Source: Microbacterium testaceum
GTDB taxonomy: Bacteria; Actinomycetota; Actinomycetes; Actinomycetales; Microbacteriaceae
DNA length: 64,000 nucleotides
Reading direction: 5' to 3'
NCBI RefSeq assembly: GCF_020781835.1
Contig: NZ_JAJGNJ010000014.1
Coordinates: forward strand, 1 to 64,000
Part shown: piece by piece, positions 28,422-32,050 of the stretch
How positions within the stretch are numbered: position 1 is the first letter of the stretch
Layout of the letters: every line of letters begins with the position of its first letter
Notes under the pieces: model-generated
Database searches by the model: none
What the model saw: the letters and a program-made list of their open reading frames with translations, nothing else
Told to the model about the DNA's origin: nothing
Made by a program: the position numbers and the translations under genes

Positions 28422-28446
28422 TGGGGTGGCTAACGGGACTTGAACC
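28422..28446. repeat. attL: 25-bp copy of the tRNA-His 3' end
   Basis: Identical to 31975-31999, beginning TGGGGTGGC and ending CTTGAACC. Beyond 28446 the sequence no longer matches the tRNA, so this is a truncated copy left at the far end of the element. Confidence 0.9.
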
Positions 28447-28659: not shown

Positions 28660-28872
28660 ATGGACCCCAGACCTGGCGCGAGCCTAGGCGTCGTGAATGT
28701 GCACCACGAGCTCGCTTACCTGCGCGCGGGGAGCGATCCGCCATGGGAGCGCCCCCACAAGGGCGGGGTGGACGTCACCTACCGACCTGACCTGTGGACG
28801 CCCTACCAGCGGGAGCGTCGAGCCTCATTCGAGGCGCGGGTCCTTGAGTATCGCCAGCGCGGACTCCTCTGA
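28660..28872 (+). CDS. Small element protein, function unknown
   Basis: The 70-residue hydrophilic protein (MDPRPGASLGVVNVHHELAY through RVLEYRQRGLL) has many charged residues, no signal peptide and no recognised domain. Support for a real gene is the TAGGCT hexamer at leaderless spacing and its place directly in front of the SGNH gene on the same strand. It could be a phage-type small protein. Confidence 0.5.
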   Translation: MDPRPGASLGVVNVHHELAYLRAGSDPPWERPHKGGVDVTYRPDLWTPYQRERRASFEARVLEYRQRGLL

Positions 28873-28955: not shown

Positions 28956-29750
28956 ATGAGCTTCCGGTCAGGGCACCGCACATGGGTTCAATCCGAGATC
29001 GGCGGGATGCCGATCTGGGCGTTGGTCGCCACAGCAACTGTCATCGCGGTTCTCGCCGCTGTCGCATTCGTCAACATGCCGAGCGCGGTGCAAGCAGAAC
29101 CGCAACGCACCCCGCGCACCGATTTTTCGTTCGGGGCTCCACAGGATGAGCGGCCTCATGCGCGATGGTTGGGAGATTCGTTCACAGAGGCGGGTCAGGT
29201 GCCGGAGAATGAGCGGTTCCCGAAGATCGTCTCCGAACACTTCGGGTGGACGTTGACCAATGCCGCTGAGGGCGGAACCGGTTACGTCACGGACGGACCC
29301 CAGGAGTTCCCGGAACGTGAACCTCTGACCGGACACGTGCAGAGGGTGATCGCAGACGCCCCCGACTTCCTATTCGTCGCGGCCGGGCTGAATGACACGT
29401 CGCGGAACTACACGGAAGACGAGATCCGCGCCGCCGTGCAGGAAACGCTTGGTGGCGTCCGAGACGGCCTGCCCGAGACGGAGATCGTGGTCATCGGCCC
29501 CTTCTGGCCGCGCGGCAACCCCATCCCCGAGATCCTCATGGTGCGCGATATCGTCCGGGAAGAGGCAGAAGCACGCGGCCTGCGATTCCTCGATCCGATC
29601 GAAGGCGAGTGGGTAAACCGTGACCCCGCGTTGATCGGGCCAGACGGAACACACCCCACTTCGGCGGGTCAGGCGGTGATCGCCCAGCGCATCATCGAGA
29701 GCTTGACCGCTGCGGGCGTCTCCCCTTACGAGGCAACGCCCGCAGCGTGA
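28956..29750 (+). CDS. SGNH/GDSL hydrolase, membrane-anchored
   Basis: The 264-residue protein has a transmembrane or signal-anchor segment at about residues 19-40, then a complete SGNH domain. Block I is WLGDSFTEA with nucleophile Ser75. Block II is the Gly in EGGTGYV, block III is GLNDTS, and block V is DGTHPTSAGQAV with Asp and His. It should be an esterase/lipase-like enzyme acting outside the membrane, perhaps on cell-wall or sugar acetyl groups. Phages of actinobacteria often carry such genes, which fits its place in an integrated element. A second, broken SGNH gene lies head-to-head behind it. Confidence 0.85.
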   Translation: MSFRSGHRTWVQSEIGGMPIWALVATATVIAVLAAVAFVNMPSAVQAEPQRTPRTDFSFGAPQDERPHARWLGDSFTEAGQVPENERFPKIVSEHFGWTLTNAAEGGTGYVTDGPQEFPEREPLTGHVQRVIADAPDFLFVAAGLNDTSRNYTEDEIRAAVQETLGGVRDGLPETEIVVIGPFWPRGNPIPEILMVRDIVREEAEARGLRFLDPIEGEWVNRDPALIGPDGTHPTSAGQAVIAQRIIESLTAAGVSPYEATPAA

Positions 29751-30026
29751 TCACGCGGTCCACGCGGCGGCCAGCTTGCCCCCCACGTACCGGGCGTGAT
29801 GCTTCATCCCCCACCGGCTCGGGTGCGTACCGTCAGAACCGCGGACCAGATCTGCGTTCCCGGACAGGTTGGTAGCCCCGACACGACCTGTGCCAGTGAC
29901 GTAGGAGCGGTCGATCTGCACGACCTGCGCGCCCGCGGCGTGTGCAGGTCCGCTGAATCCCGATATACACGAGCACAGGTGAGAAGACTCTAATCTGAGA
30001 TTTGAACGGTCGAACATCAAATCCAT
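29751..30026 (-). pseudogene. C-terminal fragment of a second SGNH hydrolase
   Basis: The last 60 or so residues (AGAQVVQIDRSYVTGTG, then LVRGSDGTHPSRWGMKHHAR) match the end of an SGNH hydrolase, including the block V Asp and His. There is no nucleophile block: the frame begins at ATG 30026 and the first 30 residues are unrelated, AT-richer sequence. It differs in sequence from the intact neighbour, so it is not a simple duplication. The gene probably lost its 5' part by deletion. Stop is 1 bp from the neighbour's stop. Confidence 0.65.
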
Positions 30027-30081: not shown

Positions 30082-30294
30082 TTAGCTCTCTTCCAACCCA
30101 CTTTCGAAGGTGTGTTCGATAGTAGAGGAGGGCTCCGACATTGGCGAGGGGGCTGGGTCAATGTACTCACTGAGGATGCGCGTCAGCACGTCCGCGAGGG
30201 TCTGCCCGCGGGAGGCTGCGAGAGCAGCGGCGCGCGCGAGGAGGTCGGCGTCGACACCGTGGAAGACGCCGTCGTTCGCTTCGCGATCGTCCAC
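30082..30294 (-). CDS. Ribbon-helix-helix-like small protein
   Basis: The roughly 70-residue protein contains GVDADLLARAAALAASRGQTLADVLTRILSEYI, with the spacing of a CopG/Arc-type RHH helix pair, then an acidic tail (PSSTIEHTFESGLEES). GTG 30294 was chosen; a TTG at 30330 would add 12 residues. It is divergent from another RHH-like gene with 50 bp between, so one may control both. No toxin partner is visible. It could act as an excisionase or repressor of the element. Confidence 0.55.
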   Translation of the reverse strand: MDDREANDGVFHGVDADLLARAAALAASRGQTLADVLTRILSEYIDPAPSPMSEPSSTIEHTFESGLEES

Positions 30295-30344
30295 GACGCC
30301 GATGGTACGCCGTGTCAATACACGCGACAACCGGTGCTGACAAC

Positions 30345-30542
30345 ATGGACATCGTGACCGCGCCTCGCCACACGCCGCCCCGGAGCTTCCGCATCCCGGA
30401 AGACATCTACGTGCGCGCGCTGCACAAAGCGCAGTCGGAGAACCGCTCTCTCACGTCTGTCGTGGTCGCCGGCCTCGAGGAGTACATCGAGGACTACGAA
30501 GACGACGACCCCGAAACGACAGAAGCCCCCCACGCCCAGTGA
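30345..30542 (+). CDS. CopG-like ribbon-helix-helix protein
   Basis: This 65-residue protein has the RHH core RSFRIPEDIYVRALHKAQSE followed by NRSLTSVVVAGLEEYIEDY and an acidic tail. The beta strand (SFRIP) and the two helices are clear. It is probably a DNA-binding dimer that regulates the element. The last codons (EAPHAQ) and the TGA stop are inside a terminator hairpin, so the coding sequence and the terminator share bases. Confidence 0.7.
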   Translation: MDIVTAPRHTPPRSFRIPEDIYVRALHKAQSENRSLTSVVVAGLEEYIEDYEDDDPETTEAPHAQ

Positions 30543-30560
30543 CGGGCGTGGGGGGCTTCT
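30521..30560. terminator. Bidirectional terminator overlapping a gene end
   Basis: AGAAGCCCCCCACGCCC (30521-30537) and its exact complement at 30544-30560 form a 17-bp stem with a 6-nt loop. The TGA stop of the rightward RHH gene (30540-30542) lies in the loop. The hairpin also stands 18 bp beyond the stop of the leftward integrase, so it can end both transcripts. Confidence 0.85.
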
Positions 30561-30578
30561 GGTGTTCGTTCTGACGGC

Positions 30579-31874
30579 CTAAGCCGCGCTGGTGGGGGAG
30601 TAGACGCCTTCGTCGTCCTCATCCTCGTAGACGAGCTCCTCGTCCTCGTCCACCTCGGGTGCCTCGAGTGCTCGGAGAGTGGACTTGCCGGAGCCGAGGA
30701 TGTCGCCGATGGCGTCGGCCATCTTGGCGTGCGCGTCGGGCACGAGGTGACCGTAGACGCCGACCGTGGTGGTGATCTTCTCGTGGCCGAGGCGCGCCTG
30801 AATGTAGGGGAGCGGGACGCCGGCGGCGATGAGCCAGGACGCGTGGGAGTGGCGCAGGTCGTGGATGGTGGGGTTCTGCCGAAGCGGAGTGAGTCCAGCC
30901 TCCTTGCAGAGCTCGATGTCCTGTGCACGGCGGAGCGTGGGAATCCAGGTGCTCGCGCGGAAGCGCCGGTACCAGATGGCATCGCCGGATACCTTGCCGC
31001 GGAAGATGAGCTGGTCGCCACGCCCGGGGGTCCCGAGCGCATCGACGAGGTCCGGGTAGAGGGAAACCGATCGGCGTCCGGCCTTCGACTTCGTGACGCC
31101 GAGCTCGCGCGCTGCAGTGGCGCCCTTCTTCCATGCCTTGACGATGCGGACAGTGGGCGGGCTCACCGCGAGCTGAATGTCGTTCCAAGTGACGGCAGTG
31201 GCCTCACCCCATCGGGCGCCCGTCCCGCCGAGGAAGTGGACCAGGGGCCGGTAGTACTCGGGGGTGAAGTGCAGGATGGTCTCGAACTCGGCCGGGGTGA
31301 GGAAGGTGGCTTCCTTCTTGACACCCTCGGTGAGCTTGGTCTTGTAGGCCGGGTTGGCGACGATGATCTTCTCCGCGACGGCGGACGCGAGCGCGGCGGA
31401 GAGGATGCCGTGGTAGTTCTTGATCGTCTTGGCGGCGACGAGCTGTCCGGCGCGGTGGACGGACGGCTGCTTCTCCTGCCAGGCGATCCACCGGGCGACG
31501 TCAGTCTTCGTGATGGCGTCGAGGGGGTGGTCGCCGAGGATGTTGAGGAACGAACGGCCGGCGGCGCGACGGTAGCCGTCTCGTGTGCCATCGGTCACGC
31601 CACTCAGCAGGCCGGACTCCGGGTCGAGGTAGCGCGTCATGAACTCGCGCAGCGACGGCATGTCGGCGGGCGCTGCGTTGCGCGCGAGGAGAACGGTGCG
31701 CGCGGCTCGACCTCCGACGCGGTCGACGAGCGCTCCGAACTCGTGCGCGGCGATACCCTTGCCGCCGCCTTCGTCGGGGAACGTCTCCTGGCACATCTGG
31801 CCGTCGATGCGGAACTGGACGCGCCAGCTCAGCGCGTTCGTGGCCTTGCTTCGACGGGGGGTGACACTTGCCAT
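30579..31874 (-). CDS. int: Tyrosine-type site-specific integrase
   Basis: The 431-residue phage-type integrase has an N-terminal arm-binding domain, a SAM-like core-binding domain at about 90-190 (PSLREFMTRYLDPESG, TKTDVARWIAWQEKQ) and a catalytic domain at about 200-400. All active-site residues are present: Arg in GTGARWGEATAVTW, HLR-type His and Arg in IHDLRHSHASWL, His in LGHEKITTT and the nucleophile Tyr in VGVYGHL. An acidic C-terminal tail follows. ATG 31874 has GGAGG 6 nt upstream; ATG 31886 is less likely. It lies beside attR and is downstream of the tRNA-His promoter. Confidence 0.95.
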   Translation of the reverse strand: MASVTPRRSKATNALSWRVQFRIDGQMCQETFPDEGGGKGIAAHEFGALVDRVGGRAARTVLLARNAAPADMPSLREFMTRYLDPESGLLSGVTDGTRDGYRRAAGRSFLNILGDHPLDAITKTDVARWIAWQEKQPSVHRAGQLVAAKTIKNYHGILSAALASAVAEKIIVANPAYKTKLTEGVKKEATFLTPAEFETILHFTPEYYRPLVHFLGGTGARWGEATAVTWNDIQLAVSPPTVRIVKAWKKGATAARELGVTKSKAGRRSVSLYPDLVDALGTPGRGDQLIFRGKVSGDAIWYRRFRASTWIPTLRRAQDIELCKEAGLTPLRQNPTIHDLRHSHASWLIAAGVPLPYIQARLGHEKITTTVGVYGHLVPDAHAKMADAIGDILGSGKSTLRALEAPEVDEDEELVYEDEDDEGVYSPTSAA

Positions 31875-31918
31875 TTCGGCCTCCATCTGCCGGTCGCGGA
31901 GCGCGACTCGCAGCTAGA

Positions 31919-31974: not shown

Positions 31975-31999
31975 TGGGGTGGCTAACGGGACTTGAACC
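31975..31999. repeat. attR: 25-bp repeat within tRNA-His
   Basis: The partner of 28422-28446, all 25 bases identical. The tRNA gene stays whole on this side, so integration kept it functional. Confidence 0.9.
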
Positions 32000-32050
32000 C
32001 GCGACCCCCGCGACCACAACGCGGTGCTCTACCAACTGAGCTATAGCCAC
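31975..32050 (-). tRNA. tRNA-His (anticodon GTG)
   Basis: A full cloverleaf with acceptor GTGGCTA/TAGCCAC, D-arm AGCTCAGTTGGTAGAGC, anticodon loop TTGTGGT and T-loop TTCAAGT, and the CCA end encoded. Position -1 is G and the discriminator is C, as required for tRNA-His. Its 3' 25 bases are also attR (31975-31999) of the integrated element. A CATAAT -10-like hexamer is seen upstream at 32081 to 32076. Confidence 0.97.

Follow-up and report, generated by a model that had tools for sequence, protein, structure and literature searches.

A probable prophage remnant in Microbacterium testaceum keeps the anchored member of a convergent SGNH gene pair that recurs in actinophages

The window analysed here, a stretch of 64,000 nucleotides from Microbacterium testaceum (assembly GCF_020781835.1, contig NZ_JAJGNJ010000014.1), contains an element of 3,553 bp (start to start) that is bounded by a perfect direct repeat, one copy of which lies within a tRNA-His gene (Table 1). 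Between the two copies are an intact gene for a membrane-anchored SGNH hydrolase, the C-terminal stump of a second SGNH protein facing it, three small reading frames and an intact integrase gene.

Table 1. Features of the element in the window (positions in the 64,000-nucleotide stretch)
Feature	Position	Strand	Basis
Attachment-site repeat, far copy, 25 bp	28422-28446		Exact direct repeat of 31975-31999
orf70, small ORF typical of mobile elements	28660-28872	+	Relatives in genus genomes
Membrane-anchored SGNH hydrolase (TM-SGNH), intact, ATG to stop	28956-29750	+	PF13472, catalytic residues, N-terminal TM
C-terminal stump of tail-type SGNH protein	29751-30026	-	Matches GOATification gp4 and L184 late protein
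Small ORF, by eye only like a short DNA-binding protein	30082-30330	-	ORF
Arc-like (ribbon-helix-helix) regulator	30312-30542	+	PHROG phrog_6506, Arc-like repressor, E=1e-6
Terminator-like hairpin in the regulator/integrase interval	30520-30561		18-pair stem, 14 G-C; inverted repeat I1
Tyrosine integrase, intact	30579-31886	-	PF00589, E=1e-16; phrog_1, E=1.8e-60
Attachment-site repeat, tRNA copy	31975-31999		3' end of tRNA-His
tRNA-His(GTG), integration target	31975-32050	-	ARAGORN

The rightward gene encodes a protein of 264 residues in which the Pfam domain spans residues 72-240 (E=3.1e-19) and the Ser, Gly, Asn and Asp/His blocks of the SGNH/GDSL superfamily follow one another in order. In an alignment of 16 sequences Ser75 (of the GDS motif), Gly109, Asp230 and His233 are invariant and Asn146 is kept in at least 90%. 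The N-terminal anchor reaches a best 19-residue Kyte-Doolittle mean of 2.45, from residue 20, and the view taken in the first-pass annotation, that the gene retains all SGNH blocks together with a membrane anchor, is thus upheld. The nearest solved sequences, acetyl xylan and CE2 esterases, a PAF acetylhydrolase and thioesterase I, are not specific, and a structure prediction made without an alignment reached a pLDDT of 53.6, too low to be of use in a fold search. Relatives above 37% identity were not found, and single-protein queries of viral_contigs with either this protein or the stump returned no close relatives of either. A promoter scan gave one weak sigma-70-like match inside the gene, with 0.4 expected by chance. 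The protein is predicted to be a surface esterase expressed during lysogeny.

The facing frame is 91 residues long, of which about 65 (approximately 29763-29957) are SGNH-like. It carries a DGTHP block V, lacks blocks I-III and has no Pfam match. Residues 44-86 share 56% identity (43 residues, E=1e-6) with the end of gp4, annotated as an esterase, of Gordonia phage GOATification, and residues 24-78 share 38% identity (55 residues; E=9e-07 in a single pairwise comparison) with a late protein of L184, an uncultivated phage contig (IMG/VR 3300042922_000673). Relatives of the stump were confined to the window itself among 295 genus genomes (E<=1e-5) and 398 family genomes (E<=1e-3). The anchored protein and the stump have only a 26-residue block V match in common (E=0.003). 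The frame had been described as the block V end of a different SGNH protein, which agrees with these results, and as lying 1 bp from its neighbour, which needs correction, as the two stop codons directly abut with 0 nt between them. The statement that no tail or lysis neighbours remain also has to be amended, since the truncated frame is itself the remnant of a tail-type neighbour. The window thus holds a small anchored SGNH gene tail to tail with an SGNH-bearing late gene whose product is truncated; the stump lies nearer to the integrase than does the anchored gene, and the late operon is deleted.

Relatives of orf70 with 77, 67 and 64% identity occur in other genus genomes, and the family was detected in ten of 149 (E<=0.01, own genome included), near recombinases or phage genes as judged by reading; in G084 the relative faces, tail to tail, genes that by reading encode phage structural proteins. 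Searches of phage and plasmid records with orf70 gave no match. The Arc-like regulator likewise matched no phage record and was found in none of the others among the 149 genomes, and the small leftward ORF that precedes it has neither a Pfam nor a PHROG match. Among the six element frames scanned with Pfam and PHROG there were no head, terminase or lysis genes and no replication or packaging genes, and Pfam gave no match to an acyltransferase-3 (AT3) or MBOAT partner.

An integrase gene beside a tRNA gene, direct repeats at both ends and a tail-type SGNH stump as the sole remnant of a structural gene are together what is expected of a decayed prophage. The element is most likely to derive from a temperate actinophage that integrated into tRNA-His and then lost nearly all of its lytic genes. 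Judged from the intact integrase and attachment sites, its excision is possible, while virions could not be made from the element alone. The same perfect repeats and intact integrase, through which mobility may persist, could instead belong to a small autonomous integrative element or phage satellite made up of integrase, regulators and cargo, and orf70 relatives are also found near other recombinases (by reading). A truncated tail gene would, however, be out of place in a functional satellite, the frames scanned include no gene for replication or packaging, and the stump was found in none of the others among the 295 genus and 398 family genomes; we regard this alternative as very unlikely.

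An integrase of the window type is present in eight of the 295 genus genomes, including that of the window (E<=1e-60). In six of the seven others it adjoins tRNA-His; the seventh, G120, has an integrase of 46% identity and no tRNA-His in its 4 kb locus. In all six tRNA-His prophages, tail and other structural genes are recognizable behind the integrase when the ORFs are read by eye, with a phage tail repeat identified by Pfam in G049. The latter is a 38.5 kb prophage enclosed by two identical attachment-site copies, each differing from that of the window by three mismatches, and its second copy is followed by a gene similar to the metallopeptidase-like gene that lies outside the far copy in the window. 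In the stretches fetched for the other five tRNA-His genomes, no second copy was found within four mismatches of the window repeat.

The convergent pair is a recurrent phage arrangement. Used as a tblastn query, the intact protein hit 56 phage records, 24 of which are from actinobacterial phages (18 Gordonia, five Arthrobacter and one Streptomyces) and represent 20 distinct phages. Sixteen of these were opened, four of the GOATification group and all 32 other records being left out, and 13 of the 16 contain a small SGNH gene; in GOATification, Hollow and LibertyBell the match lies in a large late gene, with no small SGNH partner in view. A 14th phage, Footloose, was added through an integrase search. 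All 14 isolated actinophages (Footloose, Eyes, Matteo, Budski, DirtyBoi, Clown, Bowser, Squiddly, Morkie, Belphegor, Kukla, AbbyDaisy, TripleJ and BrayBeast) have the small SGNH gene converging with a late gene. The annotation of this late gene is tail protein for Matteo, Budski, DirtyBoi, Squiddly, Morkie and one Bowser record; in the remainder it is assigned as a virion gene by its late-operon position. Four Microbacterium prophages (G098, G018, G140 and G112) carry the same convergent pair. Most of the small SGNH proteins have a hydrophobic N-terminal stretch (that of Squiddly falls outside the scored residues and that of Belphegor was seen in the alignment only), and those of TripleJ and BrayBeast are more lipoprotein-like.

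The stop codons of the two genes are between -11 and +15 nt apart in 16 of the 18 pairs, the wider gaps being 374 nt in BrayBeast, where a small ORF intervenes, and 577 nt in G112. The anchored gene is mostly found beside the integration/immunity region, on the strand opposite to the late gene. Footloose gp27/gp28 and Eyes gp29/gp30, with stops 3 and 2 nt apart, respectively, resemble the window in that an SGNH late gene converges with a small anchored SGNH gene, and place the anchored gene between the late operon and the integrase. They differ from it in being full phages with an intact tail-type gene and with the anchored gene on the integrase strand. The anchored protein of Eyes is 36% identical to that of the window and that of Footloose 22%, a match that by itself is not significant (E=0.074). 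Belphegor departs from placement at the end of the late operon beside the integrase, its pair gp23/gp24 (L071:5965-7937) being inserted among head and tail genes.

The late partner is an SGNH protein in all 18 pairs (14 phages and four prophages). In 16 this follows from its own Pfam match (E<1e-6), those of Matteo and TripleJ among them falling just below Pfam's cut-off; the AbbyDaisy partner scores 0.069 with Pfam alone and matches the Bowser partner at 4.5e-39, and that of G098 scores 2.9e-4 alone and matches the TripleJ partner at 3.8e-40. As controls, the last tail-type genes were compared in loci that have no small SGNH gene, namely seven Gordonia phages picked by integrase similarity and five of the tRNA-His prophages; Chymera was scanned without a match and left out, as its late end is uncertain and the protein is cut in the stretch. 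None of the seven Gordonia phages has a GDSL match, and Denise gp24 belongs to the esterase family SASA, which we take to belong with SGNH; among the five prophages an SGNH tail gene was found in G022 only. Counting Denise, two of the 12 controls therefore have an SGNH-type tail gene. When near-identical phages are collapsed, the comparison becomes 13 of 13 against two of 11 (Fisher p=4e-5), for controls that are few in number and were selected post hoc. By BLASTP the control proteins match the 18 partners at their N-termini only, with the exception of G022. The G022 tail gene (L050:12739-16035) is 33% identical to Eyes-type partners over 420 residues, and faces a 498-residue membrane-type protein without a Pfam match that occupies the slot of the anchored SGNH.

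An independent set was drawn from 34 scanned IMG/VR loci, 11 of which are new, lie away from a contig edge and have a small SGNH ORF that is complete and begins with a hydrophobic segment. An SGNH partner is present in six of the 11 (L178, L181, L182, L184, L185 and L188), at a distance of 160 nt in L182. The partners in L177, L179, L180 and L187 are not SGNH proteins by Pfam, the neighbour in L180 having a weak alpha/beta hydrolase match, and L199 has no partner in view. This proportion implies that the SGNH-partner rule is not strict. The count excludes L186 (no anchor by the rule used), L183 (no ORF called), L189 (contig edge), L175 (identical to Clown) and L176 (partner Pfam scores the same as those of G140); the L186 partner is an SGNH protein by homology to that of BrayBeast, and with this locus the count is seven of 12. 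In 69 genome loci a script found a convergent neighbour in 22; eight of these were scanned, with SGNH neighbours in L113 (Nocardioides) and L137 (Rhodococcus) and none in the other six.

The closest counterpart of the window as a whole is L184. Its integrase is 54% identical to that of the window, its anchored SGNH protein is 29% identical over 245 residues, with similarity extending into the membrane anchor, and the gene for the latter is directly convergent with that for a 991-residue late protein. No tRNA was found in the available stretch. The late protein (L184:4865-7840) has two SGNH matches in one chain, and the stretch resembling the stump forms the end of one of them. L184 thus has the integrase, the anchored SGNH and the stump counterpart in common with the window, from which it differs in the orientation of the pair relative to the integrase.

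These comparisons bear on the proposal in the first-pass annotation that the cargo was assembled by recombination, two esterase genes of different sources having been joined in the element. The two proteins of the window are not close paralogues, and the orientation of the pair with respect to the integrase is the reverse of that in L184, G098 and Footloose; both observations would suit such a history. However, the same arrangement recurs in intact phages, in 14 isolated actinophages as well as four Microbacterium prophages, and in L184 all three components already stand together, so that we consider the proposal highly improbable. Two contrary outcomes had been named alongside it: a full-length second gene in an unrelated context, and similarity of the intact gene to housekeeping lipases only. 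The full-length gene was instead found in the same context, including in L184, and the intact gene has its relatives in phages as well as in chromosomes, several of the chromosomal ones in envelope-polysaccharide loci. The suggested phage origin is borne out by the att/tRNA/integrase anatomy and by the phage homologues.

A deletion that fused the integrase end of the prophage to the end of its late operon would have left the integration end, the last residues of the tail-type SGNH protein and the intact convergent gene for the anchored SGNH. The anchored gene is on the integrase strand in L184, G098 and Footloose, which share the integrase type of the element, and on the opposite strand in the window, as also in Matteo, Budski, Squiddly and Morkie. 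The segment may have been inverted; alternatively, attP may have been located between an integrase gene and an anchored gene on opposite strands, in which case the late-operon end would come to lie at the far attachment site and one deletion would be needed to give the gene order of the window. The orf70 relative in G084, which faces genes read as structural, fits both the inversion and the far-end attP.

Comparison of DNA blocks longer than 250 bp revealed the exchange of a single cassette that comprises the C-terminal part of the tail gene together with the anchored gene. The two Getalongvirus phages Budski and Asapag share a 2,434 bp stretch of 91.8% identity that reaches residue 177 of the tail protein gp34 and, beyond the swapped block, one of 1,366 bp at 98.1%; in between they differ by a block of about 2.9 kb (L061:5239-8109 versus L102:12737-15726). 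In Budski this block contains an SGNH tail end and the anchored SGNH gene; in Asapag it contains a tail end without an SGNH match and an acyltransferase-3 gene, and the Birdsong cassette is of the Asapag type. In Ecliptus the tail end is pectate-lyase-like and no acyltransferase gene of this kind is annotated. Eyes and Bowser carry two different SGNH pairs between similar flanks, 3,405 bp towards the tail genes at 91.0% identity and 1,749 bp towards the integrase at 83.0%. Conversely, Budski and Matteo, which belong to different genera, are 98.6% identical over the 3,142 bp that hold the pair and 64-68% identical in other blocks, and Eyes and Matteo are 94.1% identical over 2,400 bp holding the pair. 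Such exchange argues for a functional match in which the enzymes of the virion and of the lysogen would act on the same surface acyl group.

BLASTP links the anchored proteins to one another, the best value between different phages being 2e-30. Among the partners, an Eyes type, a Bowser-AbbyDaisy-TripleJ-G098 group, a Clown-Belphegor-Footloose-G140 group and others can be told apart, and in the 18 pairs compared no full-length relation between groups was found. Gene duplication was rejected as the origin of the pair: within the 18 pairs an anchored protein resembles its own partner no more than it resembles those of others, the best own-pair match having E=0.001.

Acyltransferase-3 genes occur in or beside the slot of the last tail gene in Birdsong (gp35, L100:13547-14668), Asapag (gp35, L102:13006-14178), Kukla (gp31, L067:4600-5754) and the G062 prophage (L041:3087-4343); those of Birdsong and Asapag are convergent with the tail gene and overlap it.

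Chromosomal relatives of the anchored protein are common, being present in 111 of the 295 genus genomes, own genome included (E<=1e-10). Several, as judged by reading, lie in envelope-polysaccharide loci: the copies in G067 and G101 adjoin genes for chain-length-determinant-like and phosphatase-like proteins, those in G146 and G216 are near glycan-type genes, and that in G207 adjoins an acyltransferase with an SGNH-like end; a CDP-alcohol phosphatidyltransferase was identified by Pfam in locus L121. The window protein is not placed in the tree, where phage genes are interleaved with chromosomal ones. Descent of the anchored gene from one phage source was tried and set aside, one phage clade being weakly rejected (p-AU 0.015). 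The protein may accordingly be viewed as an actinobacterial envelope esterase that phages acquired, with no antiphage role and a chance survivor of a recent deletion, as the abundance of chromosomal relatives, the interleaving and the rejected clade would allow. This leaves unexplained the joint exchange of the pair and the SGNH-bearing gene that faces it in all 18 pairs and in six of the 11 independent loci, and we judge it quite unlikely.

The reading that we consider probable combines a decayed prophage with a cassette of tail and anchored SGNH genes, the anchored half of which would serve superinfection exclusion. During adsorption the tail enzyme would act on a surface glycan of the host; the anchored enzyme, likely to be expressed in the lysogen, would target acyl groups of the same class from its place in the cell membrane. 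The lysogen surface would then be unfit for virions with such tails, which would exclude superinfecting phages and protect released progeny. The earlier suggestion that the cargo is a surface-modifying esterase, with a possible effect on phage adsorption, stands in this sense as a prediction. In other phages, SGNH tail proteins deacetylate surface polysaccharide (PMC13123978, PMC10743462), and Escherichia coli lacking O-acetylation of the O-unit is completely resistant to the deacetylase-tailed phage G7C (PMC10743462); the opposite strategy is seen in Sf6, whose O-acetylation blocks superinfection (PMC9558356). A prophage enzyme able to strip off the group on which the tail enzyme acts would make the cell inaccessible. 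We infer lysogenic superinfection exclusion of the Sf6 Oac type from the position of the gene, the exchange of the cassette and precedent only; lysogenic expression, a common substrate, deacylation and retention of the gene by selection are likewise predicted.

A more specific version is tentative, its chances falling somewhat short of even. The pair would be a lock-and-key cassette in which the virion SGNH uses an acylated glycan and the anchored SGNH of the prophage removes or changes the same group, shutting out like-tailed phages; the cassette would be swapped whole, other tail ends coming with other partners such as an acyltransferase, and the window would be a fossil keeping the protective half only. 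The exclusion reading is weakened by the six of 11 SGNH partners in the independent IMG/VR set, by the SGNH tail gene of G022 that faces another membrane-type protein, by the flipped orientation of the pair relative to the integrase in comparison with L184, G098 and Footloose, and by the distance of Footloose gp28 from the window protein, the two being linked through other members.

The same decayed prophage could alternatively have carried an acyl-transfer system, in which the anchored SGNH, as partner of a host or phage acyltransferase-3 or MBOAT protein, would help to acylate the surface glycan in the manner of the SGNH domains of OatA/OafA or PatB, and the tail enzyme would be the matching deacylase. 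An acyltransferase-3 gene directly adjoins the pair in Kukla (E=8.5e-30), occupies the corresponding slot by itself in Birdsong and Asapag, and lies between integrase and tail genes in G062; the chromosomal relative in G207 has its acyltransferase neighbour (by reading), and a soluble SGNH protein, PatB, can receive acetyl from a protein consisting of AT3 only (PMC9558356). Hydrolysis, however, requires no partner, an annotated acetyltransferase is found in one of the 14 phages with an anchored gene (Kukla) within the stretches opened, the element frames scanned have no AT3 match, and in Asapag and Birdsong AT3 accompanies a tail end without SGNH. Acyl transfer is thus an unlikely role, and hydrolysis in the service of exclusion is retained here as the preferred reading.

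The variable region of Gordonia phages between the minor tail genes and the integration cassette has been predicted to hold prophage defence genes (PMC5559632). It is the same slot as that described here, and Bowser gene 31, termed there a 'putative lipase', is among the 14 anchored SGNH proteins; the section concerned mentions neither an SGNH tail partner nor a matched pair (PMC5559632). Seroconversion by Oac of the Shigella phage Sf6 resembles the proposal in that a prophage enzyme alters surface acylation and blocks the phage's own tail enzyme; Oac, though, is an acyltransferase that adds acetyl, whereas the window encodes an SGNH hydrolase in a Gram-positive host, with a predicted effect (PMC9558356). 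G7C gp63.1, Klebsiella prophage tail fibres and Curtobacterium prophage enzymes are SGNH proteins of tail or depolymerase-like type for which deacetylation has been shown or predicted, and in the portions consulted they are described as virion enzymes only, without an anchored partner (PMC10743462, PMC13123978, PMC9862828). A literature search limited to the accessible text of papers outside subscription and preprint sources found no description of an anchored/tail SGNH pair.

The general pairing of SGNH genes is of interest beyond the element in the window. If the substrates of the two enzymes match, a single exchangeable pair of genes could reveal both receptor choice and self-exclusion in temperate phages of Gram-positive hosts, and the position opposite the last tail gene would be a direct place in which to seek surface-modification defences, SGNH and acyltransferase-3 alike. 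A very small element with an integrase and attachment sites can, moreover, be a prophage that retains only a surface-conversion gene, a function that is here predicted.

A Wzy_C-like protein is encoded in the tail region of the G040 prophage (L049:7655-8977; E=2.5e-6, below the cut-off). The host genome itself contains a second, chromosomal SGNH gene (G000:C7:16017-16715; L081:7991-8713), the product of which is 28% identical to the anchored protein of the element and has a lipoprotein-like start.
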